This document shows, in pieces, positions 1-16,063 of a stretch of 64,000 nucleotides of DNA. Every line of letters starts with the position of its first letter. Position 1 is the stretch's first letter. A program made the translations under genes and the position numbers. Source of the stretch: Methanobrevibacter gottschalkii DSM 11977 (GTDB lineage Archaea; Methanobacteriota; Methanobacteria; Methanobacteriales; Methanobacteriaceae); the NCBI RefSeq assembly GCF_003814835.1, contig NZ_RKRG01000001.1, forward strand, positions 248,001 to 312,000, in the 5' to 3' direction. A model generated the notes under the pieces. That model saw only the letters and a program-made list of their open reading frames with translations, had not been told where the DNA came from and did not search any database.

Positions 1-3000
1 CAATAGTTAAATAAGAAATGAACTCTTTAGTTAAGTAATCCTTTTTAGATGCAATAGCTTTAATCGAATAACCCGCAGGAGTATAACTATCATCAAATTT
101 ATATCTTAATTTTGCTACACCATTTGAAGAAGTTGCATTACCAATTTCTTCCCCACAAATATAAAATTTAACCAATACCCCATCAACACCAACATTCAAA
201 ACAATATCTGCAGTACCCAAATAATTAATCGTTACTTCCGGAATTAATCCATTTAAAATATAGATGTAATTACCTTTAACAAAATTATTATTTGTGTTAT
301 TAATAGCTTTATCACCAATACCCATTTCAGAATTTAAATAATTGTAAAATAAATTATTTTTAATTGCTAATTTATCAATAACAATTGCATAACCTTTTTT
401 AGAAGTTATATTATTGCCAGATATATTATTACTAGAAGAATTAAATTTAAGACAGATTCCAGCAACCCCAACACCTAATGAATCACACACATTATAAGTT
501 ATTTCCTCACCAGTAACATTATTCATTACAATATTATTAAGGATAATATTATTCTCAGCATTTGAAAGTGCAATAGCATATGCCTGCTTAGCTTTTATAT
601 CAAGATTATTCCCTTTAATAAAATTACCATTCGACCTAAAAACTTCAAGTCCATAAACAATATCTGAAGTTAATTTTAGATTATTATCTTTAATAATTGA
701 TTTTTGAGACCCTTCTAAATTAATACCATATGAAAAATTATTAGATTTAGCATTAACAGTATTTGAAATGAGAGTTGTGTTTTTTGATTCATGGCCAATA
801 ACTAAACCTTGAACAAAATAATCTCCTTCCAAAACAATATTATTGTTAATAAATTGATTATTAGATGCATCTTTTCCTTCAGGAGCATCATGCCCAGTAT
901 TAGAACCTAATACACCCATACCATAAATATAATTATCATTAGACTTTACATAAATATTATTATTTGAAAAGGTATTATTATGACTATTAAAATATAAATC
1001 TATACCAACAATAGAATTTGTAGATATATTATTATGATAATTATTTCCCCAACTTGAATTAAATGTATTAGATGTTTTATTAAGCTTAGAAGTTGCATTT
1101 ACTTTATTTCCAGAAATATTGCAACCAGAAGAATAAGCCATCAAAATACCATAAGTCCTATAAACCTCATTTAAAACATGATTTCCAGTTATAGTATTCC
1201 CACTTGTACAAACAGTATCTCCACCAACACAAGTAGAACCATCTATACAATTAGAATTGCCATCAACACAATGACTATTTTCAAATACATGCTCAATACC
1301 AGTTCCAATGGTATGAATACTATTATTGATAAAATTACAATCATAGACACTTATAGCAAGTAATGTATAAGTTAAATAATTACCATTAGATGTAAGGTTA
1401 TTATTCAAAACATCAATATCGCTTGATTCTACAACATAAATTGCATATGCTGCGTTTGGATCTGTTACTTCAATATTGCAATTAGAAATTATCGCTCCAC
1501 CAGTATTATATACAAGGATTCCCCATGCATTTATTCTTTCAGAATCTTTATTTTTAATTGTTAAATTTTCAATCCAGACACCTTCAGATATCCTAAAAGT
1601 AGCATTATAAAAATTCGGATTTTTACCAGTAATTTTGACTGCAGAATTAATATATATTACACCCTTATTCTCAAAATTACCATCGAAATATAAAATATCT
1701 CCATTTTTAACAACTGAATTTAAAGTACCTCCCACATCAAAATAATCATCATAATTTTCAGGAGTAATACTATAAGTTGTTCCCTTAAAGATATAACGTG
1801 GTTTTGATGGATCATATGACCCTTCAGGAGTTGCAACAATACCTTTACCCTTAGGAATAGTATTATTTTCAATAACATAACTAGTATCTGCATTAACCTC
1901 AATTGCATCAATTGCATACTTATTTCCAGTAGAAATATAGTTATCAACAATAGTTATATTCCCTGGCATTTTTTTAACACTTTCTTTTTTAACTAAAACA
2001 CCAACACCATTTCCACTTGTAATATTATTACCAACTACAACCAAATCAAAATATTCGCCTTTCCAAAAGACACCAGCACCAGATTCAGTAATTATACTAT
2101 TGTTTTTGATAGAAATATTACTTCCACTTGCCTGAATACCATATCCTGATGACACAACATCAATAGTATTATTTTCAATAATTGCATTATCAATAGCATA
2201 AATCGCACCAGAACCTGGAAGTATTCTTGCATTTTCAATAGAATTGTTTATTATTATCGCATTTGCTGAACCAACAATTCCATACTCCCCTCCAACTTCA
2301 ACAACAGGATGATTAAAATCCGCACCAGTAATATTAATAATCCTATTATTAAATATCTCATTAAATGCACCATTTGAAGTTGAAATGCCTCTGAATGCAC
2401 CAATTATCCTATTGGAATAAATTTTATTGTATCCACCCATTATCTGAATACCATAACCCCATGAAGTTGGCAAAACATTATATTTTACAGTGTTGTTGTA
2501 AATTAAATTATAATTAGAAACACCACCATGCAAAGGACCCCCATCATAGTAAGACAAATATATCCCGTTTGCATCATCACATTCAATATGATTGTTTGCA
2601 ATATAGTTATGATGAGCACCAGAAAGAAGTACAGGTGGTGTTGATCTAGTTCCTTGACCCCCATAATTCATACCATAATCACAGAAAAAATTATTTGATA
2701 CATTATTGTAATTTGCATTATTGGCTATGCAAATTGCATAAGAGGACATTCCTGTATTGTTAATAAAACAATCTTTTACAATGCAGTTACTTGCACCATT
2801 TAAGAAAATTCCATAATTATAATCCTCAGTATTAGCAATATTCAAGCCAATAATGGAACTTCCTGTTGCACCATTATAAAATGTGAAAACACCGTTTTTC
2901 ATTGGTTTTGATCCAGAATAAACAATATTTAAAGTTTTATTAAAATTAAAAGTTTTAGAACTAACTTCATTCCAATCTCCAGTAAAATTAAGTGTGTCCC

Positions 3001-3253
3001 CAGATTTAACCTTAGAAGAAATTAGATCACCATTATTATTAAAATAAATAGAATACTTTTCTACATTTATTTCATGTGTTGTAAATTCAGCTAGAACATC
3101 ATCATTAGAAAGCAAAATACTTTCATCCGATGGATTACTCAGAATAGAACCATTATTATTTAAAGTATCCTCCATATTATCACTAGCACAAACAGTAGCC
3201 ATTGATATAAAAATGAGGAATAATAATAATGAAATATTAAATTTTTTAACCAT
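1..3253 (-). CDS. Adhesin-like beta-helix surface protein (3' end outside window)
   Basis: The reading frame is open from an ATG at 3253 to the left edge with no stop, so at least 1,084 codons are present and the C-terminus lies outside the window. A GTGAGGTG ribosome site sits at 3258-3265. The product starts with a charged n-region and a hydrophobic stretch ending in a plausible signal peptidase site (VCAS, about residue 22), followed by about 900 residues of Asn-rich short repeats of the NNTISNN / GIYL / GNNIT type, the pattern of right-handed parallel beta-helix (NosD/PbH1-like) adhesins. Near the left edge it changes to an Ig-like domain (residues about 1,000 onward, with GVDGVLVKFYICGEEIGNATS). 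Such proteins are the main surface-protein family of gut Methanobrevibacter and probably mediate attachment or sugar binding outside the cell. The exact ligand cannot be told from sequence. It is downstream of and co-directional with the CobN gene, with 139 bases between them. Confidence 0.85.
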   Translation of the reverse strand, partial: MVKKFNISLLLFLIFISMATVCASDNMEDTLNNNGSILSNPSDESILLSNDDVLAEFTTHEINVEKYSIYFNNNGDLISSKVKSGDTLNFTGDWNEVSSKTFNFNKTLNIVYSGSKPMKNGVFTFYNGATGSSIIGLNIANTEDYNYGIFLNGASNCIVKDCFINNTGMSSYAICIANNANYNNVSNNFFCDYGMNYGGQGTRSTPPVLLSGAHHNYIANNHIECDDANGIYLSYYDGGPLHGGVSNYNLIYNNTVKYNVLPTSWGYGIQIMGGYNKIYSNRIIGAFRGISTSNGAFNEIFNNRIINITGADFNHPVVEVGGEYGIVGSANAIIINNSIENARILPGSGAIYAIDNAIIENNTIDVVSSGYGIQASGSNISIKNNSIITESGAGVFWKGEYFDLVVVGNNITSGNGVGVLVKKESVKKMPGNITIVDNYISTGNKYAIDAIEVNADTSYVIENNTIPKGKGIVATPEGSYDPSKPRYIFKGTTYSITPENYDDYFDVGGTLNSVVKNGDILYFDGNFENKGVIYINSAVKITGKNPNFYNATFRISEGVWIENLTIKNKDSERINAWGILVYNTGGAIISNCNIEVTDPNAAYAIYVVESSDIDVLNNNLTSNGNYLTYTLLAISVYDCNFINNSIHTIGTGIEHVFENSHCVDGNSNCIDGSTCVGGDTVCTSGNTITGNHVLNEVYRTYGILMAYSSGCNISGNKVNATSKLNKTSNTFNSSWGNNYHNNISTNSIVGIDLYFNSHNNTFSNNNIYVKSNDNYIYGMGVLGSNTGHDAPEGKDASNNQFINNNIVLEGDYFVQGLVIGHESKNTTLISNTVNAKSNNFSYGINLEGSQKSIIKDNNLKLTSDIVYGLEVFRSNGNFIKGNNLDIKAKQAYAIALSNAENNIILNNIVMNNVTGEEITYNVCDSLGVGVAGICLKFNSSSNNISGNNITSKKGYAIVIDKLAIKNNLFYNYLNSEMGIGDKAINNTNNNFVKGNYIYILNGLIPEVTINYLGTADIVLNVGVDGVLVKFYICGEEIGNATSSNGVAKLRYKFDDSYTPAGYSIKAIASKKDYLTKEFISYLTI

Positions 3254-3392: not shown

Positions 3393-6300
3393 TTAATAAT
3401 CATCGAAATCTTCATCTTTTTGATTTCTAACATATCCAACTAAGAAAATTACAATTAAAATAATAATAGCAATTATAACAAATATTGGCATGCTAGATTC
3501 AGCGCCACTAGTAGATTTAGAAGCGGATTGTTGGGACAACTCATATGCATCAGCACCTGAATCACCTGATGAATCACTAGAATCTTGAGATTGTGAAGCA
3601 GATTTTGCATCACCTGCTTGAGAGGAATCTCCTCCAAAAGATGTTTTATCCCCAGATTCTGAATCTGATTGTTTATCTTTAGTAGTTCCATTAACAATTC
3701 CTTGTGCATTATTATCATTATTAGCGGAATCTTTTTCCACCTCATACAAAGGATCAGTATTAGTAGCTTGTGCCAATATTTTTGCAAATTCTGCTTTTTG
3801 AGCAGGAGTTAATGAACTTACTTGAATGACCTTGTTATTAAAATCCAAGTTTTTACAAGTGTGGTGACAACATGCAACACCATATTTTAAAACTTGTCTC
3901 ATATATTCATCAGCGAGTTTCTGAAGGGTTTCACTATCTGCATCCCAAGTACCTTGAGTTGCTAAGTAAATCATGTGCGCAATAGCAGATTGAATACCGT
4001 AAGAAGTACTTGCATCTCTAACACCACTAGCTAAGTCTAAAAGGGTATTGGACATTTGATTACCTAATTCCTTATTCAACTTATTACCACTAATAGTCAA
4101 AATACCGAATGTATTCTGCATTCTTGAAGCAATCCAGTTCATACCTGCAGCAGTTCCTTTAAGAGGTTTAAGATATTTTGGATTCAAAAGAGTGGTTCTG
4201 ATTTCAAACTCCATCTCTTCCTCATAAGTTCTAGTAACATATTTATTCTTATCACGGATATCAACAAATGAAGTATCAGGTCTGCTTAAACCTGCTTTTT
4301 GCCTTAAAATTGAAGCAGCATTATATAATCCCCCAAACCAATCATAGTAATCATCAGAATCTAAAATTCTCCAAGTACTATCTAGGTTTTGTGTTATTAA
4401 CTCTGTTTTTGTAAGGAGATATTTGTAAGTATCTTTTTGTTTAGTGATATTGATATTACCCTTCTCATCAATAGTCCATGAAAATGAAACAGTATCCAAA
4501 TAAACATTCATACCTTCCACATTAACTGTGGAAATATTCCAATTAGCAGTATTTGGAATAAGAGTACTCATACCAGTACCCTCAAGAATATTGCCCGGAA
4601 GACCAAATAATCTATCAAGAGTAGGATATTCATTATAATGTTTTATAACATAATTATCATTTTCACTTTCACCAGCATTTGCCGCTAACCTAGTGGCAGT
4701 TACCATCCAAGTAATCCAATCTTTATTACTTGTAACTAAACTTGCATATACATCAATCCTAGGTCTGTTAACAACAGAACCATTGTGTAATTTAACTTTT
4801 AAGTCCTTTAAAGGAAGTAGTTCAACGCCAATTACTTTACCATTTTCTGCCCATTTCGGTTTACATCCTAAGAAGTATAAAAATTCTGCAACACCAATTC
4901 CTTCAGTTCTTGATATTTCTGTACCCCATAAGATTAATGCAGTCATTTCAGGCCATTTACCATGTTTTTCATAATAATCCGCAAGCAATAAATTCACTAT
5001 ATTGACTGCAGATTCATATGCTGCTTCAGATGGCATTCTAGTAGGATCGGATGCATATCCATCATATCCTGTTGGAATTGAATCACCATATGCAGGATCC
5101 GCAAATAAACCTGCTTTAACATATCCACCAGATAATGCAGTGAGAATTGCATTCCATTCATTGTTATTTTGGATATTTATAATTACATCTTGAGCATATT
5201 TCATTGATGAGAATAATGAACTATCTTTATTTACACCTAACTTATTAACCAAATCCAAAACAGAAGATCCGTTAACTAAGCCATCAACATAGTTTCTTAA
5301 GAATGCCTGAATAGTATGACGTTCATTAAGGTATTTTACATCTCCTTGAATATCTTTATAAAAATCTTTGCCTTTTAAATTAGGATATAAAAATTCCATT
5401 ATTTGATTATAAATCTTAGTTTGAGAAGTTACGATTGTAACAACTTCTTCAGATAGTTCATTACCTGTTAAAACTTTACCCAAATTATGTAATCCATAAG
5501 TCATTAGGTCATCACCCATACTTTCAAGATAAAGGTGCAATTCCTCAAGCCAGTGATTAAAAGACTCACCTTTAGACATCTTTCTGAAACCTAAATTAGG
5601 AGCTAATTTAAGAATTTTTTCTTTATATATATTAGCATTAGAAGTAACATTGAGTTTAATCTGATTATTATAACTATTAATATAATTATTTAAAATCGAA
5701 TAATTACCATATAACTCAGATGATACTATAGCAGGAGTCATGTGAGTAATAAGCATTGCTAAACCTCTATCCCTTGCAACCATAGCTTCACCAGGATTAG
5801 ATACAATATATGGATATATTGTTGGAATTCTTGTTAATTCATAGGACCAATCTCCAGAACCAACACCGATATTTTTACCAGGTAACCATTCTAATGTTCC
5901 GTGTGTTCCCATACTAACAATTGCATTAGCCTTTGTTACTTTATCCATCCACTCATAAAATGCAACATATTGCTGATGAGGAGGTAATTTCAAATCATGG
6001 TAATTTTGAATAACTTCACCAATATCTGCTTCTTCCCAACCTCTGCTTGGTTGATAAGTAATAAAAATATTGCCAAACCAAACACCAGGAATAACCAAAT
6101 ACTGTTTACCATCACTAGCTGTATAAACCATTGATTTACCTAAACCAGCACCCCATTGAGTAACCATTTCCTCATATAACTCATCTGGAAGATCTGAAGT
6201 TAAATCAATGAACTCATCCATTGAGATTAATTGGTTATGTTTAACTAATTCATCCCAATTCTTTTCAACATATTTTTTTAACAAACCCCCAGCCCAGGAT

Positions 6301-8207
6301 CCTTTGTTACCACTATCAATTAATAAATTAGTGAATTCTGTAATATTCATCATTTTCCTAATATCCCCAATAGCATAACCATTTTCATACAATTTAATAA
6401 GTAAATCATAAGTACTTTGCATTACATCCAAATAAGATGCGCCAATTTCGGCTTTACCAGGAGGATAATTATAAAGAACAATAGCTATTGTTTTTTCAGA
6501 GTTATTTAAATCTTTCAAATCAGCCCACCTACTACTGAGCTGAACCATCTTATCAACACCTGATTGAATTACATGAACCTTATCCTCATCTAGATACGAT
6601 AAAATAACAGGACTAAACACCCCTTCAAAACTCGGATAAGTCACAGAGTAAGTCCACTCAACTTGAGGTCCAAGTTCACTTTCATAACTGTATTTTGAAA
6701 TTTCATTTACACCTTTAAGGATTTCAACATCAATATCAGATAAATCTTTTTCAGCAGAACCATTAGCATAACTTAAAGACCAACTATATAATGAAGTAAT
6801 AGAAGAAATTCCTATTTTTGAGACATTATTAATTTTATTTAATATTGAAGACATTGAAGGATCTGTAGAAAATTTAAAAACATTGAATGCAGGCCTTCCA
6901 ATTTCTTCATAACCTCTAATTAAAGAATCAACAACTTCCCCACCACAATAGTAAGAAACAATAGCTATGAATTTCTTATTAGGATTAAATCTATCAATAA
7001 ATTGATTTTCAAACTGTTCAAATAAAGTAGTAGGATCCAATAGATCTACAAACCACTTTGGATAATCCTGTATCATCCAATTTAAACTACCAATTCCATC
7101 AACACCATATCCAGGATTAGTTTTAATCCAATTATTTATTAAACTACCTTCAGGATATATGGTGAAAATACCTAAATCTGGATGATAAAATCCACATTCT
7201 GGACCCATTTGAGGAGCATTAGAATCATTAAGTGTGGGATTTTCATATTTTGACGGATTAATTAAATAATACACATATTTCAAATAGTTTTCCATATTAT
7301 GATACAAAACATCTGATAAGTTAATGTCTTTGGCTTGGAAATAAGAACCAATATAAGTGTTTTCAATAGTATTGAAAGTATTATTCTTCGAGTTTGCACC
7401 AACAATGTGTAAACCAGTAGCGTTTAAAATTGAATTACTATAAACACCGAATGTATATGCAACATTATAATTTGCATTAGCTGGAGAGATAGCAAGCAAT
7501 TTTTTTAATTTTTCAGCAGTGAATATGGCATATGCTCCTTCGGAAAACATATCAATATGAATGAAACGTGCATACCCAACTAACCATTCACGAGACACAT
7601 CATAATCTTGCCCAGTGCTAATGAAAGCCACTCTCTTAGACATATTCATTAAAACATTTAACTTTTCATTATGGGATTTATAATCTACAAATAATAGAAT
7701 ATCAGGAATAAAGTCAAATGATCCTTTTAAAGTTCCGGATTTTTTAGTAAAATCCAATACTTTAGATTTTTTTGGTTCATAATCTGCATAACTAACTTCA
7801 ACATAATATTTGGTTGATTTTAAATTTTTAATTAAAACTGAACCTTTTGAATCTGTCTTATGTGTTGAAATTAATTTATCATTAGCACCATATAATTTAA
7901 CTGTTGCATTAGCTAAATTATAACCATCCTCATCCCATGTATTAGCCGTTTCATTATAATGATGTTTAACATTAATCTGAATATTATTATTAGTCGCAGC
8001 CAATAGAGGTTCATCTACTTGAAAACTCTGTATTTGTTGAATACCAACATCATCTTCAACAGTGGATAAAACATCAGTTACTGTAGTGTTATTCTGTGCA
8101 AAAACGCAGTTTAATGAAAACAATATAAACATAACTGCAAATAATGTAAATAACAACTTATTATCTAATCTTTTCGTTATTTTCACCCCCTTTACATCAA
8201 TATACAT
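3393..8207 (-). CDS. Surface-anchored CobN/ChlH-type chelatase subunit
   Basis: The 1,604-residue product carries the CobN / magnesium-chelatase H family core: GTHGTLEWLPGK near residue 766, NPGEAMVARDRG shortly after, WGTEISRTEG near 1,091, RPRIDVYASL near 1,149 and a LNPK...NTFGI block near 1,330. In cobalamin synthesis CobN inserts cobalt into hydrogenobyrinate diamide with CobS and CobT, in the cytoplasm. This copy is different: residues about 17-37 form a signal peptide ending VFA/Q, residues about 75-160 look like a carboxypeptidase-regulatory/Ig fold, and after the core come a Ser/Asp/Gly-rich linker (about 1,480-1,570), a single hydrophobic segment (about 1,571-1,592) and a short acidic tail. 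The chelatase domain is therefore predicted outside the membrane, where ATP-driven insertion by a CobST-like motor is unlikely; tetrapyrrole or metal binding is an alternative. The start is uncertain: ATG at 8207 lacks a ribosome site, while an AAAGGGGGTGA site at 8183-8193 points to GTG 8186, ATA 8180 or ACG 8177. Confidence 0.88.
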   Translation of the reverse strand: MYIDVKGVKITKRLDNKLLFTLFAVMFILFSLNCVFAQNNTTVTDVLSTVEDDVGIQQIQSFQVDEPLLAATNNNIQINVKHHYNETANTWDEDGYNLANATVKLYGANDKLISTHKTDSKGSVLIKNLKSTKYYVEVSYADYEPKKSKVLDFTKKSGTLKGSFDFIPDILLFVDYKSHNEKLNVLMNMSKRVAFISTGQDYDVSREWLVGYARFIHIDMFSEGAYAIFTAEKLKKLLAISPANANYNVAYTFGVYSNSILNATGLHIVGANSKNNTFNTIENTYIGSYFQAKDINLSDVLYHNMENYLKYVYYLINPSKYENPTLNDSNAPQMGPECGFYHPDLGIFTIYPEGSLINNWIKTNPGYGVDGIGSLNWMIQDYPKWFVDLLDPTTLFEQFENQFIDRFNPNKKFIAIVSYYCGGEVVDSLIRGYEEIGRPAFNVFKFSTDPSMSSILNKINNVSKIGISSITSLYSWSLSYANGSAEKDLSDIDVEILKGVNEISKYSYESELGPQVEWTYSVTYPSFEGVFSPVILSYLDEDKVHVIQSGVDKMVQLSSRWADLKDLNNSEKTIAIVLYNYPPGKAEIGASYLDVMQSTYDLLIKLYENGYAIGDIRKMMNITEFTNLLIDSGNKGSWAGGLLKKYVEKNWDELVKHNQLISMDEFIDLTSDLPDELYEEMVTQWGAGLGKSMVYTASDGKQYLVIPGVWFGNIFITYQPSRGWEEADIGEVIQNYHDLKLPPHQQYVAFYEWMDKVTKANAIVSMGTHGTLEWLPGKNIGVGSGDWSYELTRIPTIYPYIVSNPGEAMVARDRGLAMLITHMTPAIVSSELYGNYSILNNYINSYNNQIKLNVTSNANIYKEKILKLAPNLGFRKMSKGESFNHWLEELHLYLESMGDDLMTYGLHNLGKVLTGNELSEEVVTIVTSQTKIYNQIMEFLYPNLKGKDFYKDIQGDVKYLNERHTIQAFLRNYVDGLVNGSSVLDLVNKLGVNKDSSLFSSMKYAQDVIINIQNNNEWNAILTALSGGYVKAGLFADPAYGDSIPTGYDGYASDPTRMPSEAAYESAVNIVNLLLADYYEKHGKWPEMTALILWGTEISRTEGIGVAEFLYFLGCKPKWAENGKVIGVELLPLKDLKVKLHNGSVVNRPRIDVYASLVTSNKDWITWMVTATRLAANAGESENDNYVIKHYNEYPTLDRLFGLPGNILEGTGMSTLIPNTANWNISTVNVEGMNVYLDTVSFSWTIDEKGNINITKQKDTYKYLLTKTELITQNLDSTWRILDSDDYYDWFGGLYNAASILRQKAGLSRPDTSFVDIRDKNKYVTRTYEEEMEFEIRTTLLNPKYLKPLKGTAAGMNWIASRMQNTFGILTISGNKLNKELGNQMSNTLLDLASGVRDASTSYGIQSAIAHMIYLATQGTWDADSETLQKLADEYMRQVLKYGVACCHHTCKNLDFNNKVIQVSSLTPAQKAEFAKILAQATNTDPLYEVEKDSANNDNNAQGIVNGTTKDKQSDSESGDKTSFGGDSSQAGDAKSASQSQDSSDSSGDSGADAYELSQQSASKSTSGAESSMPIFVIIAIIILIVIFLVGYVRNQKDEDFDDY

Positions 8208-8377
8208 AGCAATATAAAATAATCAACTATGAAATTAAATTTAATTTGAAAATATATAAATTTTATTAAAATTAAAAGAATCTTACAATTTTTCATATAC
8301 ATATTAACACAAATAAGATACATTTAAATAATATAATCCAACTAATTAAATGTACTAATATAAAAGAGGTGACATTA
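8208..8377. promoter_or_regulatory. Divergent promoter region between cobN-like and DUF1002 genes
   Basis: This AT-rich 170-base gap separates two divergent genes for secreted proteins. On the minus strand a TATA-like element (TTTATATATTTT) around 8254-8266 would place transcription start near 8233, leaving a leader that includes the strong ribosome site at 8183-8193. On the plus strand a TTTAAATAATATAA element around 8322-8335 fits the DUF1002 gene. Elements were read by eye and are predictions. Confidence 0.4.
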
Positions 8378-9220
8378 ATGCATAAAAATAGCATCATCAT
8401 AATTATTTTATCAATAACAATTATAGGAATGCTTATTCCAGCGGGTTTTTCAGCAAATGATTACCAAATTGTTATAACATACGGTGAAACTACAAAAAAC
8501 AATGCTGAATATAAGAACACTGTTGATTCATTCTTTGAAAATCAAGCACATATGGATTTAAAAGGAGTAAATTCCAAAATAATCACTGCCAATGAAGTGA
8601 ATAAAATTTCAAGTACAATAACTGGAAAAAGTTATAATTCAAATCAGATTTTCTCATCAGCACTAGTTGATTTAGGAGATAATGATAACCTTAAAGTTAG
8701 CGTAGACAAATCAAAAATTACCACAATAACTGGAGATATGTATCTCTCCGCATTAAAATCAGCAGGAATTACAAATGGCCATGTATATATAACAAGTCCC
8801 GTTACTGCGACTGGTGAATCTGCTTTAGCGGGAATTATGAATTCATATGAAGTAGCTACTGATGTTGAAATTCCCGCACCGGTTAAAGAAGCTGCAAACA
8901 AAGAGATTTATACACAAGCGGAAATTGTAAAAGAGTCAAATGTTAGTGCCGATGACTTATCAAACTTGGTTGATGATGTAAAAGAAACCGTTAAAGAAGA
9001 AAACATTACAGATTACCAGACAATAGTAAATATAATCAATAACACTACCATTAATTACAATATCAATTTAACATACAATGATATTGAAAACCTTGCTGAA
9101 AGTATTGAACAAATACAAAATGTTCAGGGAGATATTAACAGTTACCAGACAGAAGTAAATGATGTGCTAAATACTACCGATACATCAAATACTGGATTTT
9201 TAGACGGGCTATTCAACTAA
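8378..9220 (+). CDS. Secreted DUF1002 family protein
   Basis: The 280-residue product has an N-terminal signal peptide (hydrophobic residues about 5-25, ending GFSA/N) and a DUF1002 (YpuA-like) domain, recognised by the block DMYLSALKSAGITNGHV, then ITSPVTATGESALAGIMNSYE, and the following K-AANKEIYTQAEIV segment. The function of DUF1002 is unknown; the family is secreted in Gram-positive bacteria and occurs in gut methanogens. The last 100 residues are Asn/Glu-rich and helical, without a membrane anchor, so it may be released or bind another surface protein. I start at ATG 8378, with GAGGTGAC four bases ahead; an upstream GTG at 8369 lies inside that ribosome site. It is transcribed divergently from the surface CobN gene, which suggests a shared function or regulation, but this is inference. 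Confidence 0.85.
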   Translation: MHKNSIIIIILSITIIGMLIPAGFSANDYQIVITYGETTKNNAEYKNTVDSFFENQAHMDLKGVNSKIITANEVNKISSTITGKSYNSNQIFSSALVDLGDNDNLKVSVDKSKITTITGDMYLSALKSAGITNGHVYITSPVTATGESALAGIMNSYEVATDVEIPAPVKEAANKEIYTQAEIVKESNVSADDLSNLVDDVKETVKEENITDYQTIVNIINNTTINYNINLTYNDIENLAESIEQIQNVQGDINSYQTEVNDVLNTTDTSNTGFLDGLFN

Positions 9221-10001: not shown

Positions 10002-10292
10002 TCATGGCCTGTTAAGAGTAACCCACCTTCTGTTTTACAGCATTCATCTTAGCGTGCTACCTTGCCTACTCAAGAGATTATCGGCAACTTTGCTCTTGCA
10101 TCCTATGGAATGGCCGTTTCACCTGTTCTTTTAATGTCCTCAATTAAATATCATAGTCCACCATTAAAAGACGTATCGTTTCTGCTCCAGTGTCATGCTT
10201 CTCAGCATACGTTTTTCAACGCCATAGTCTTGTATGATGGGCGGAGTTTCCTTAGTTAATAAAAACCAGCAGCTGTCTTTAACTTGCCATGA
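10002..10292 (-). ncRNA. rnpB: RNase P RNA (archaeal type)
   Basis: Read on the minus strand, this 291-base region has the conserved RNase P landmarks in order: a CR I-like GGAAACTCCGCCC near the 5' end, an internal GAAACGGCC segment, a CR IV-like AAGATGAATGCTG, and the CR V-like ACAGAAGGTGGGTTACT near the 3' end. The ends were set from the closing P1 helix: TCATGGC at 10292-10286 pairs perfectly with GCCATGA at 10008-10002, extended by GTTAAAGA with TCTTAAC. RNase P removes 5' leaders from tRNA precursors together with the archaeal Pop5/Rpp proteins. It lies only 24 bases downstream of the initiator tRNA on the same strand and has no obvious TATA box of its own in that gap, so the two are probably co-transcribed. 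Confidence 0.9.
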
Positions 10293-12548: not shown

Positions 12549-13400
12549 TTAATATATAGTAGGAACTCTAACTCCCATTTTTGCTCTTCTTTCAAATTCT
12601 GCACCGTTTTTGTCTTTTTTACCTTTAGCTAATTTTTCAAGTAAAGGAAGACCGAATTTTCCATCGTCAACAGGTTTTGTTTCAATTAAACCAGCAGAAA
12701 CTGCTTCTTTAAATATACTATTACCATCATCGGTTCTAGTTAAAACGGTAGACCATCCATCTGGAGATCCTACAGAACCAGTAGATATGTCAGCCCATTC
12801 AGCAACATAATCAGTACAAATGTTACATCCTGATTGTTCATAACCATGAGTTTCTTTAAGTTTTAAACCAGAATCTTCTCCATCTTTTGTTAACCAGAAT
12901 TTTCCTTTACCAATGTCCATTTTAGTAGCATCAGTTAACTTATCAAATCCTAATTTTGCAGTAGCAAAAGTGTCAAGAGAAGCCATAGGGAAGTTTTCCA
13001 TACAATAAATACCAATGATTAAATTAATTTTATTAACGACAAATCTTGTGAATGGATAAGCTTGTGCTTTTCTTAACCCTTGGATTTGACATGGTGTTGC
13101 TACAACTCCAATTTTTTCAAGACCGTATTGACGAGTTGCTTCTTTTAATACAGCTAAAGTAGGAGACATTGAATATTTAGTTCCAGCATTTGCAATTACT
13201 TCATCAGATGAAGTTACAACAGTAGGAACAGGTCTCCAATCATCATCAGGAGTTCCAGCTACAACAGCACCTTCAATTTTTCCTTCATCAAGTGCATAAC
13301 AAAGCAATGCAGATACAATTCCTCCATCTTGTGATACATCTAGGATTTTTTTCTCAGTAGCTCTTGCTGAGATTGCTTCTTTATAATTACCTAATGGCAT
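12549..13400 (-). CDS. frhB: F420-reducing hydrogenase subunit beta
   Basis: FrhB is the flavoprotein subunit of the F420-reducing [NiFe] hydrogenase. It holds FAD and one [4Fe-4S] cluster and passes electrons from H2 to coenzyme F420. The 283-residue product has the family N-terminus (DVSQDGGIVSALLCYALDEG), the VATPCQIQGLRKAQ segment, the cluster-binding IGIYCMENFP, and HGYEQSGCNICTDYVAEWADISTGSVG. Length is typical (about 280). It is the last gene of frhADGB, 11 bases after frhG, with a GGGGGAA ribosome site. Reduced F420 supplies the mtd and mer steps of CO2-based methanogenesis. Confidence 0.97.
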   Translation of the reverse strand: MPLGNYKEAISARATEKKILDVSQDGGIVSALLCYALDEGKIEGAVVAGTPDDDWRPVPTVVTSSDEVIANAGTKYSMSPTLAVLKEATRQYGLEKIGVVATPCQIQGLRKAQAYPFTRFVVNKINLIIGIYCMENFPMASLDTFATAKLGFDKLTDATKMDIGKGKFWLTKDGEDSGLKLKETHGYEQSGCNICTDYVAEWADISTGSVGSPDGWSTVLTRTDDGNSIFKEAVSAGLIETKPVDDGKFGLPLLEKLAKGKKDKNGAEFERRAKMGVRVPTIY

Positions 13401-13411
13401 ATTTATTCCCC

Positions 13412-14254
13412 CTAAAGTCCTGTTTCCTTTTTAATTCTTCCTTCAGGCAACCATGACCTTGGACACATCATATAACAAGATCCACATTTAATACATCTGT
13501 CTTTATCACAGCTAGGTCTACCTTCTGAGAAGCCCATTGCTCTAGTTGGACAAGCAAGAGCACAAGTTCCACAACCAGTACATAATCCTTGGCGAACTAC
13601 ATTGGTTAATACGTCACAACCACATCCTTTATCACATGCAGCCCAATCCATTGCAGGTTTTAAATAGTCTAAGTCGCCTTCACATAATGCAACTATAGTT
13701 TTTGCAATCATTTCAGGTGCAACAGGACAACCAGGAAGTGCTACATCCACTTTAACTAAAGAACCAATTGGTAAGAAAGATTCATGGCTAGGTTGAGCTT
13801 GTTGTCCTCCACGTGAATAAGTAGTGAAACAACCAGTAATAGCACAAGACCCGAATGCTGCAATTAAACCAGCTTTTTTCCTTGCTTCTAAAAGTTCATG
13901 TACACTATGTTCATCTTGTAAACATACAGAACCTTCAATTAAACATAAGTCCATTTCAGGCATTTCTTCAGCATAAGTTCCGTGAATCCATTTATCAACT
14001 AAAGTTTGTCCATATACAATATCAACCATATCAGTCAAAACAGTGGATAAGATATCATAATTTTCGGTTAAAGACATTGCATCTCCAGTACAACCACTTA
14101 AGTGTATGTAACCAATACGTGGTTTTGATGAAGCTGCTTTAGGTTCTTCTGCAGGTGCTTTTGTTTCTACAGGAGCAACCTCTTCAACTTTTTCATCTAC
14201 TTTTGGAGCAGGTTCAGCTGAACCGCCAAAAGCTTTTTTTAATTTATCAAACAT
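13412..14254 (-). CDS. frhG: F420-reducing hydrogenase subunit gamma (small Fe-S subunit)
   Basis: FrhG is the electron-transfer subunit that links the NiFe site in FrhA to FrhB. The hydrogenase small-subunit part begins at about residue 47 ([22 protein letters not shown]). In the usual proximal-cluster motif CTGC the second Cys is replaced by Asp here, which matches the Asp-ligated proximal cluster described for methanogen Frh. A C-terminal ferredoxin part holds two [4Fe-4S] motifs ([17 protein letters not shown] and [13 protein letters not shown]). Between the N-terminal helix and the Fe-S domain is a Pro/Ala/Glu/Lys-rich linker (about residues 13-45). Its start overlaps the frhD stop by one base (TAATG), implying translational coupling. 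Confidence 0.97.
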
Positions 14255-14823
14255 TATTTTACCCCGATTTCTTTTAAAATAATATCAATAGCTTCAGGAA
14301 TTGCCTTTTCTACAGATTCAGACAAACCCACATCGATGTCAGGTATTGGGATAGAAGCAGGTTTACAACCAACAATTACAACTTCACATTTTTCAGAAAT
14401 CTTTTGAAGTGGCTCTTCAACAGTCATACCATGAGGATTATCATATTTTCCTACTTGCATAGCATTAGGATCAAATATGCCCACAGTTCCAGGTTCGGCA
14501 TTTGATTCAACTACATCAATAACAATCAATTTTTTCCAGTCATACTCTTTGTATAACGGAAAGAAGTTCATTGGTGCTGCAGTTCCTCCATCAATAAACT
14601 GCACACTATCTGGTAAAGTTACACCTTCAAATTTTTCTTTGATTTGATTTAAAACATTCTTATCAAATTCATCTTCAACATACGAAGTAACCGCCGGATC
14701 ATAATAATCATTTTTATCATTAAAATATTTTTGTAAAAGATTAATAACTATTGGACCGTAGCCATCATCTTTAAATAATATATTTCCACATCCAATAACG
14801 ATTATATCCGAATCATAAGGCAT
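14254..14823 (-). CDS. frhD: Frh hydrogenase maturation endopeptidase
   Basis: FrhD is a HycI/HyaD-type endopeptidase that trims the C-terminus of the large subunit FrhA after nickel insertion; it is not part of the final enzyme. The product is 189 residues with the family start [18 protein letters not shown], whose Asp/Glu-like residues and later Asp ([12 protein letters not shown]) and [10 protein letters not shown] His are the expected nickel-sensing ligands. [19 protein letters not shown] block also fits. It sits between frhA (17 bases upstream, GGAGGATAA ribosome site) and frhG. Confidence 0.95.
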
Positions 14824-14839
14824 TATTTATCCTCCACAA

Positions 14840-16054
14840 TTATATTCTCACCATTTCATTCTTGAGAATGGATTTATCTTCATCGTCAACAACCATTACG
14901 TGAGTAGCACATGATAAACAAGGATCATATGCTCTGATAACATGTGGTCCATACTCGTGATGGAATCCTTCAGTAGCTGGTCCCATTGTAGGAATGTTCC
15001 AAGTAGTTGGTACAATAGCAGAGTAGAATTTAGTTTTTCCTTCGACAACCTTAGCCATATGTACATTGGTTCCCCTAGGACCTTCAATTACACCAAAACC
15101 AAGTTCTCCAGTTCCTCTTTTATCATAACTTACTTTTGCAGGAGCAGCAGGATCAATTGCATCCAAAGCTTCCATACATGCATCGTAGTTTTTTAACATT
15201 TCATCTGCACGAGCCACATGTTGTGCATTTACACCTTTACCTTTAAATCCAGCAAATTTTTCCATTCTTGCTCTAGGACCAGTTTCAACATTTTCACCAT
15301 TAATTAATGGAATTACAGAACAAGCCTTTTTACCAATTTCAGGGTCATCATACCAAGCTTCAGGTAAAACTTCTGAGAAAACGTCCATATCGAAATCGTT
15401 GGTTCCATAAGTTGCATCAGTTGCCATTAATGGTCTGTTTATTACACCTAAATCATCAGGTAAACCTTTTTCAACAACACAGTTTTTGATTAGTTCAATG
15501 TGTTCTTCGAGTTTTGGTCTGAGTGCAGTCATTCTTTCGATTAATCTTTCTTTAGTGAATGGAGTAATGTTTCTAGCCATTCCACCAACTCTTACATCAG
15601 ATGGGTGGATACCTTCACCAGCAATCATGTCTACAACATATTGTACTGTTTTTCTTACTTCACTTACACTGTCAACAGCTGTAGCGAATAAATTTTCAGG
15701 TACAAAATCAGTTGCAATTAAAAACTGGTGAATAGCTGCACTGTTAATGTTGTGTGCTGCTAAAGTAGCTTTTCTTAACAATTTAGCATTTTTAGGAATT
15801 TCGATTCCTAAAGCCATATCCATTGCTTCTGCAGAAGCCAAAGTATGTGGAATTGGACAAACACCACAAATTCTTTGACATAAAACAACAGCAGATTCAG
15901 GAGCTTTGTCAAGAACCATCTTTTCTAAACCCCTAACCGGAGTTATACTTAAATACATACCTTTTGTAACTATCCCCTCATCATCAACTTCCATGACTAA
16001 TTCGGCATGGCCTTCTTGACGAGTTGTAGGAGATATAACTACTCTATCTTTCAA
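14840..16054 (-). CDS. frhA: F420-reducing hydrogenase subunit alpha (NiFe large subunit)
   Basis: FrhA carries the [NiFe] active site that splits H2. The 404-residue product has both nickel motifs: N-terminal [11 protein letters not shown] (about residues 59-69) and C-terminal [10 protein letters not shown], followed by a 17-residue tail (from [10 protein letters not shown]) that FrhD would remove. All four active-site residues are Cys, so this is not a selenocysteine form. I place the start at TTG 16054, six bases after GAGGTG, giving [19 protein letters not shown], which aligns with other FrhA N-termini; the upstream GTG at 16063 is part of the ribosome site. First gene of frhADGB. Confidence 0.97.
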
Positions 16055-16063
16055 ATATGTCAC

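Follow-up and report, generated by a model that had tools for sequence, protein, structure and literature searches.

An exported, membrane-tethered CobN/ChlH-fold protein of Methanobrevibacter gottschalkii, a candidate extracellular chelatase homologue with a putative ExbB-type partner module

The 64,000-nucleotide stretch of Methanobrevibacter gottschalkii DSM 11977 DNA analysed here (the window) encodes a protein of the CobN/ChlH fold that is predicted to lie outside the cell. This raises the question as to what a class I chelatase homologue does there and what could drive it. The gene (3393..8207, minus strand, as are all its parts given below) is a single intact and uninterrupted open reading frame encoding 1604 residues from an ATG at 8207; a GTG at 8186 may be the true start, the equivalent codon being the one at which a relative, L023, begins. 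The protein opens with a signal peptide (aa 1-37, 8097..8207) that has K/R in its n-region, the h-region LLFTLFAVMFILFSL and a cleavage site predicted by eye between VFA and Q. The CobN/Mg-chelatase core with its head, neck and body (aa 304-1427, 3927..7298) is followed by a Ser/Asp-rich linker (about aa 1478-1571, 3495..3776) and a C-terminal transmembrane helix (aa 1573-1593, 3429..3491; MPIFVIIAIIILIVIFLVGYV), which ends in an acidic cytoplasmic tail, RNQKDEDFDDY. Kyte-Doolittle maxima over 15 residues reach 2.7 in the N-terminal segment and 4.0 in the C-terminal helix, against at most 1.5 and 0.6 at the corresponding ends of cytosolic CobN/BchH references, and both hydrophobic segments are absent from four cytosolic CobN references. 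Judged by these hydrophobicity patterns and their conservation in the family, the protein is predicted to be exported and membrane-anchored, as the initial annotation had proposed from the signal peptide, linker, helix and tail. The Ig- or CNA-B-like N-terminal domain that it had also described is fainter: a weak prealbumin/CNA-B-like domain (aa 92-152, 7752..7934) matches CarboxypepD_reg (E 5.8e-6), SdrD_B (5.9e-4) and SpaA (7.1e-4), none of which reaches the gathering score.

The core, delimited by the PF02514 (CobN/Mg-chelatase) match and an AlphaFold model, is complete, as had been claimed; the match covers profile positions 11-1089 of 1090 with an E value of 5.2e-183. Scores against the NCBIfam CobN and BchH equivalog models are far below their cut-offs, which places the protein in the PF02514 superfamily without a named family. 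The AlphaFold model (aa 290-1480, 32 rows, pLDDT 86, pTM 0.84) bears out the expected likeness to CobN (7c6o, TM 0.74) and, less closely, to ChlH (TM 0.71), both behind the best PDB match, HmuS (9d26, TM 0.78). HmuS, encoded in the hmuYRSTUV operon of Bacteroidota (PDB 9d26, 9p4s), is membrane-anchored and proposed to be periplasmic (PMC13227078), and it has been described as an extracytoplasmic CobN-like enzyme that works without ATP (EMBO J 2025, PMC12583661). The two proteins share an export signal, a C-terminal helix, the CobN/ChlH fold, the histidine of a GTHG motif and the lack of an AAA+ motor, and some HmuS also have the C-terminal Cys pair. Because HmuS is already known, an extracytoplasmic location is not new by itself: of the little-described anchored chelatase first suggested for this locus, the export, the tether and the preserved cleft stand, and the claim to an undescribed location does not.

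The cleft residues are well preserved. The GTHG motif (5898..5909) carries His769, the equivalent of HmuS His538, which is essential for heme demetallation and whose replacement in H538A abolishes activity (PMC12583661). In 12 window-type proteins His769 and its neighbours never vary, and 32 exported homologues keep them almost without exception. The second active-site position is occupied by Asp1286 in the motif DSDDYYDWFGG (aa 1283-1293, 4329..4361); this residue is His in HmuS, in BchH and in a ChlID-linked cytosolic protein, and Asp in CobN and in the whole window clade. The window protein thus resembles cytosolic CobN (7c6o) in fold, GxHG motif, DSDDYY motif and corrin-type second residue, but differs from it in being exported and anchored, in its C-terminal CCHHTC motif and in the lack of CobST and of a cob neighbourhood. 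It likewise shares the fold and catalytic His of the magnesium chelatase H subunit ChlH/BchH (PDB 4zhj), but is exported, has no ChlI/ChlD and carries Asp at the second position, where that subunit has His.

In two unrooted trees (64 rows under LG, 30 rows under a mixture model), the window type forms a clade of its own with support of 100, seen among the tree rows only in Methanobacteriales and separate from HmuS in both. Cytosolic CobN/BchH rows fall on one side of a branch with SH-aLRT support of 99 (LG) and 95 (mixture model); as the trees are unrooted, a single origin of export is unproven. HmuS of gut Bacteroides is the one characterised member of this exported CobN-like family. Signs against an extracellular role were looked for across the relatives: the cleft residues are kept in the 12 window-type proteins, no cytoplasmic form occurs in the window clade apart from one damaged copy, and co-occurrence with cytoplasmic CobST was not found.

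The reported absence of a chelatase partner nearby extends to the whole genome: a search for the AAA+/VWA partner with TIGR02442 (ChlI+ChlD-type subunit), which left out separate CobS and CobT models, gives no match at E<=0.001 in the genome of M. gottschalkii, and TIGR02442 or looser relatives match in 13 of 14 control genomes. No cob gene cluster lies among the flanking genes examined. By comparison, a true cytosolic CobN in G119, a Methanothermobacter-like genome that belongs to the same order, lies near a ChlI/VWA protein (L142) and groups with CobN/BchH in the tree, in a clade distinct from the window type. Candidate energy partners of another kind do exist, encoded elsewhere in this genome and next to the CobN gene in relatives.

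These candidate partners are an ExbB-type channel, a DUF2149 protein and a membrane protein of the DUF2162 family, which is not mentioned in the literature searched. Window-type orthologues of M. curvatus and Methanoflexus are held in CobN-DUF2162-ExbB-DUF2149 operons, and that of UBA586 in a CobN-DUF2162-ExbB row that reaches the contig end. Exported CobN proteins also adjoin the set in Methanococcoides, Methanosarcina, Nitrospira, Nitrospirae, Desulfotomaculum and a Firmicutes MAG, and a plasmid of Trichlorobacter lovleyi (Geobacteraceae) carries DUF2162, ExbB, DUF2149 and CobN directly in a row; its authors had already remarked that a CobN there stands next to TonB genes and lacks CobS/CobT (PMC3403914). 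The CobN/BtuS proteins of the Methanosarcina, Nitrospira, Trichlorobacter and Desulfotomaculum sets share with the window protein the export, the tether, a CCHHTCxN or CCDHTCxN motif and the module partners, but the window clade forms a branch of its own in Methanobacteriales and in gut Methanobrevibacter the module is non-adjacent, with a DUF1002 gene adjacent instead. In the hmu operon of Bacteroides finegoldii (HmuY, TonB receptor, HmuS, HmuT, ExbB, DUF2149), HmuU is a MotA/ExbB protein (E 2.3e-10) and HmuV a DUF2149 protein (E 2e-34). An equation of HmuT with DUF2162 was rejected, two HmuT proteins having no Pfam match, and homology to the archaeal set is therefore claimed for HmuU and HmuV only. 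In Runella, ExbB-DUF2149-CobN stands among genes for hypothetical proteins, along with a weakly matching NicO/DsbD-like permease.

The window CobN gene itself is unlinked to ExbB, DUF2149 and DUF2162, as it is in gut and rumen Methanobrevibacter at large, and hmuTUV-type genes in the same operon are absent from the 64-kb window. DUF2162 nevertheless occurs three times in the genome, always with ExbB and DUF2149 next to it: one copy by a further exported CobN, a paralogue on contig C3, in the operon DUF2162 - MotA/ExbB - DUF2149 - DUF3344; one unlinked (C3:228.0-229.7 kb); and one at C1:338 kb, by a gene for a secreted FmdE-domain protein and CbiM. Genes of the three families lie away from the window gene at C3:188.3-190.0 kb as well as at the unlinked site. 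All nine Methanobrevibacter genomes of the sample whose sole CobN is of the window type have kept the unlinked DUF2162-ExbB-DUF2149 operon. Across 83 genomes of the family, DUF2149 is present in 70 of the 71 with CobN, the exception being a 490-contig assembly, and of the 12 without CobN six, spread over five genera, also lack DUF2149. The Fisher p value of this co-occurrence (1.6e-5) ignores kinship, which inflates its significance, and the repeated joint absence of both genes is the better argument. Exceptions to co-retention in a 60-genome sample of the genus are mostly incomplete genomes.

An exclusive partnership between the unlinked operon and the window CobN was not upheld. In six genomes (G020, G022, G024, G032, G037 and G044) the single DUF2162 copy lies beside or a few kb from the paralogous CobN, so one set would have to serve both CobN proteins. 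Nor is the motor CobN-specific, since some genomes have DUF2149 without CobN, and at C1:338 kb of the M. gottschalkii genome it stands with an FmdE-like secreted protein. At this locus (L128:4520-14660, about 335-346 kb on C1), which adjoins CbiM and a ModE/TOBE-type regulator, a secreted, tethered FmdE-domain protein of 976 residues has a DUF2162-ExbB-DUF2149 set to itself directly after it, so that another exported protein is paired with the same motor.

A further feature separates exported from cytosolic proteins. Every archaeal clade of exported proteins, and several of the bacterial clades, closes the body with a motif that resembles G-x-x-C-C-[HD]-x-[TS]-C-x-N, represented in the window protein by CCHHTC-K-N (aa 1446-1453, 3849..3872); it is near-invariant in exported CobN homologues and missing from the cytosolic CobN/ChlH rows. 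HmuS of B. theta retains C-x4-C-x-N, and that of B. finegoldii is without the cysteines. DUF2162 proteins in turn, the FmdE-linked copy excepted, carry PCPxC within a hydrophobic segment, and a metal or electron relay may run from CCHHTC to this intramembrane PCPxC. In one exported paralogue (L149:902-11369) the motif takes the form CDCSC, and the gene adjoins a molybdate/tungstate-type ABC transporter with a TOBE domain.

The reading that we favour, at a probability of about 0.5, is that of an exported, anchored class I chelatase homologue, coupled to the proton-motive force, that binds an external metallotetrapyrrole and removes (or transfers) its metal; metal stripping is the best supported of the alternatives raised in the initial annotation. 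The tetrapyrrole would bind in the CobN-type cleft, where His769 and Asp1286 would act on the metal, either extracting it or holding the ring during its transfer. Close to the membrane a permease would receive the metal, possibly via the CCHHTC motif, and pass it inward. As extracellular ATP is unavailable, a proton-driven machine, the ExbB-type channel and DUF2149 together with DUF2162, would stand in for the AAA+ motor that drives cytosolic chelatases and would couple the proton gradient to the exported CobN or to DUF2162. Archaea and Firmicutes have no outer membrane, so in those that carry the module the motor must do something other than serve a TonB receptor, the role proposed for Bacteroides HmuU/HmuV; that they keep the S-(T)-U-V core without such a receptor argues that it acts on the chelatase or on its permease. 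The fullest version, in which ExbB/DUF2149 is the motor of the CobN-type protein itself, CCHHTC passes its load to PCPxC and the whole recycles nickel or cobalt in the gut, is tentative and has distinctly less than even odds. If it holds, rumen and gut methanogens would have a route to recover Ni or Co, the metals of their own key cofactors, by recycling corrinoids or F430 from cells that have lysed. The HmuS study left open what many archaeal HmuS/CobN/ChlH homologues are used for, in species without complete hmu operons (PMC12583661). Relative to the literature searched, the archaeal module, the unlinked motor, the CCHHTC signature and the DUF1002 pairing are new.

A surface receptor or scavenger that binds a tetrapyrrole (corrinoid, F430 or heme) for uptake, with no metal chemistry, survives best among the other explanations and is still rather unlikely. 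The head and neck of HmuS resemble periplasmic binding proteins (PMC12583661); the tether, the long linker and the Ig-like domain would suit such a role, and some family members have lost the catalytic His. However, GTHG, DSDDYY and FGG, which make up the complete active-site set, hardly vary in the window clade, beyond the needs of binding alone, and the motor module is co-retained. The losses concern two exported paralogues of Methanolobus (L117:13751-18037 and L118:4164-8462) in which CCHHTC is kept; from their sequences they are likely binding-only or otherwise altered members, so that binding-only proteins may exist in the family.

Less probable again is a true HmuS-type dechelatase freeing iron from gut heme. 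The common topology, nearest solved fold and catalytic His point that way, as do the HmuU/HmuV homologues in the genome; CobN-like proteins of M. barkeri also increase under some Fe/S regimes (PMC10846266), and a Methanothermobacter-like paralogue heads a feoAB operon. Against this, the His of HmuS LSLDHxxEFMGG (His1209) is Asp1286 in the window protein, the columns of the Met-rich domain IV insertion (about 1100-1400 of the alignment) are largely gaps, and the heme ligands Met79 and His254 of the HmuS head and neck, where the alignment is weak, appear unmatched. The window clade is separate from HmuS in both trees, and its system, in an archaeal host without an outer membrane, differs in having no HmuY or HmuR, an unlinked partner operon and a DUF1002 neighbour.

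Extracellular insertion, in which a metal is loaded into a metal-free tetrapyrrole before uptake, is quite improbable. Class I chelatases normally insert and the direction is unreadable from sequence, but in methanogens the metal enters the rings early and in the cytoplasm, by the CbiX and CfbA pathways. HmuS, the only tested exported member, removes metal (PMC12583661). An ordinary cobaltochelatase of B12 synthesis with a mis-annotated location, suggested by CobN-like cleft residues and the CobN label in databases, can be set aside almost entirely in view of the signal peptide and membrane helix, the lack of a ChlI/ChlD-type subunit in the genome (TIGR02442) and of a cob cluster in the flanking genes examined, and the different clade of the real cytosolic CobN that lies near a ChlI/ChlD-type protein in G119.

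For the favoured stripping or transfer of metal, the Asp at the second active-site position favours a corrin-like ring or a hydrocorphin over heme, with a corrinoid or Ni-F430 as the candidates. The evidence from relatives as to the metal conflicts. Cobalt is indicated by a cobalamin riboswitch directly before the DUF2162-ExbB-DUF2149-CobN operon in monoderm Desulfotomaculum (L106) and in Firmicutes HGW-8 (L107), a further riboswitch in the latter leading the adjoining CbiM-CbiQ-CbiO-CbiJ operon; iron by exported CobN-FeoA-FeoB operons in two Methanothermobacter-like genomes of the same order (L145:2463-8806, L150:3920-10228); and nickel by M. marburgensis CobN1, present at a high level only under nickel limitation (PMC12350162). 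CobN1 is at most a putative member of the window clade. The exported family seems to serve several metals, and for the window clade Co or Ni is probably likelier than heme Fe, the Asp-type cleft fitting them better. A cobaltochelatase mentioned for a faecal metaproteome was set aside, being a sirohydrochlorin cobaltochelatase, a different enzyme (PMC4829149).

Upstream of the CobN gene, a promoter block with a TATA box and TTTTCAAATTAAATTTAA (8235..8260, minus strand) is kept in most of 27 aligned intergenic regions, and Rfam finds no riboswitch at the gene. A secreted DUF1002 protein is encoded divergently (8369..9220, plus strand; likely start ATG 8378). Such a divergent partner occurs at 32 of 47 CobN loci, in gut and rumen Methanobrevibacter and usually at a spacing of 97-241 bp; it is missing at 11 other loci despite sufficient upstream sequence, all outside the core Methanobrevibacter clade. 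Reading the function of DUF1002 from its fold was dropped (pLDDT 69, no PDB match at E<=0.001, a marginal sequence match at E 0.16). A second DUF1002 gene of the genome (L129:6344-7201, contig C2) has no adjoining CobN, and in G059 the DUF1002 gene persists with CobN absent. A shared operator, GTAATAC...GTATTAC, upstream of the paralogous CobN, FmdE and CbiM genes was rejected as a regulon signal: its genome-wide count of 29 is lower than the 38 of a reversed-pattern control, and the second-best site stands beside unrelated genes.

The CobN gene is followed on its own strand, after about 140 bp, by a gene that runs off the window start (1-3253, minus strand); its product is a beta-helix repeat protein, adhesin-like and with a signal peptide. 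On the other side, the archaeal RNase P RNA gene occupies 10007-10287 (minus strand; Rfam RF00373, 200 bits), and the frh genes of the F420-reducing [NiFe]-hydrogenase (12549-16063, minus strand) lie about 4-8 kb from the CobN gene, in a neighbourhood that is syntenic across many Methanobrevibacter.
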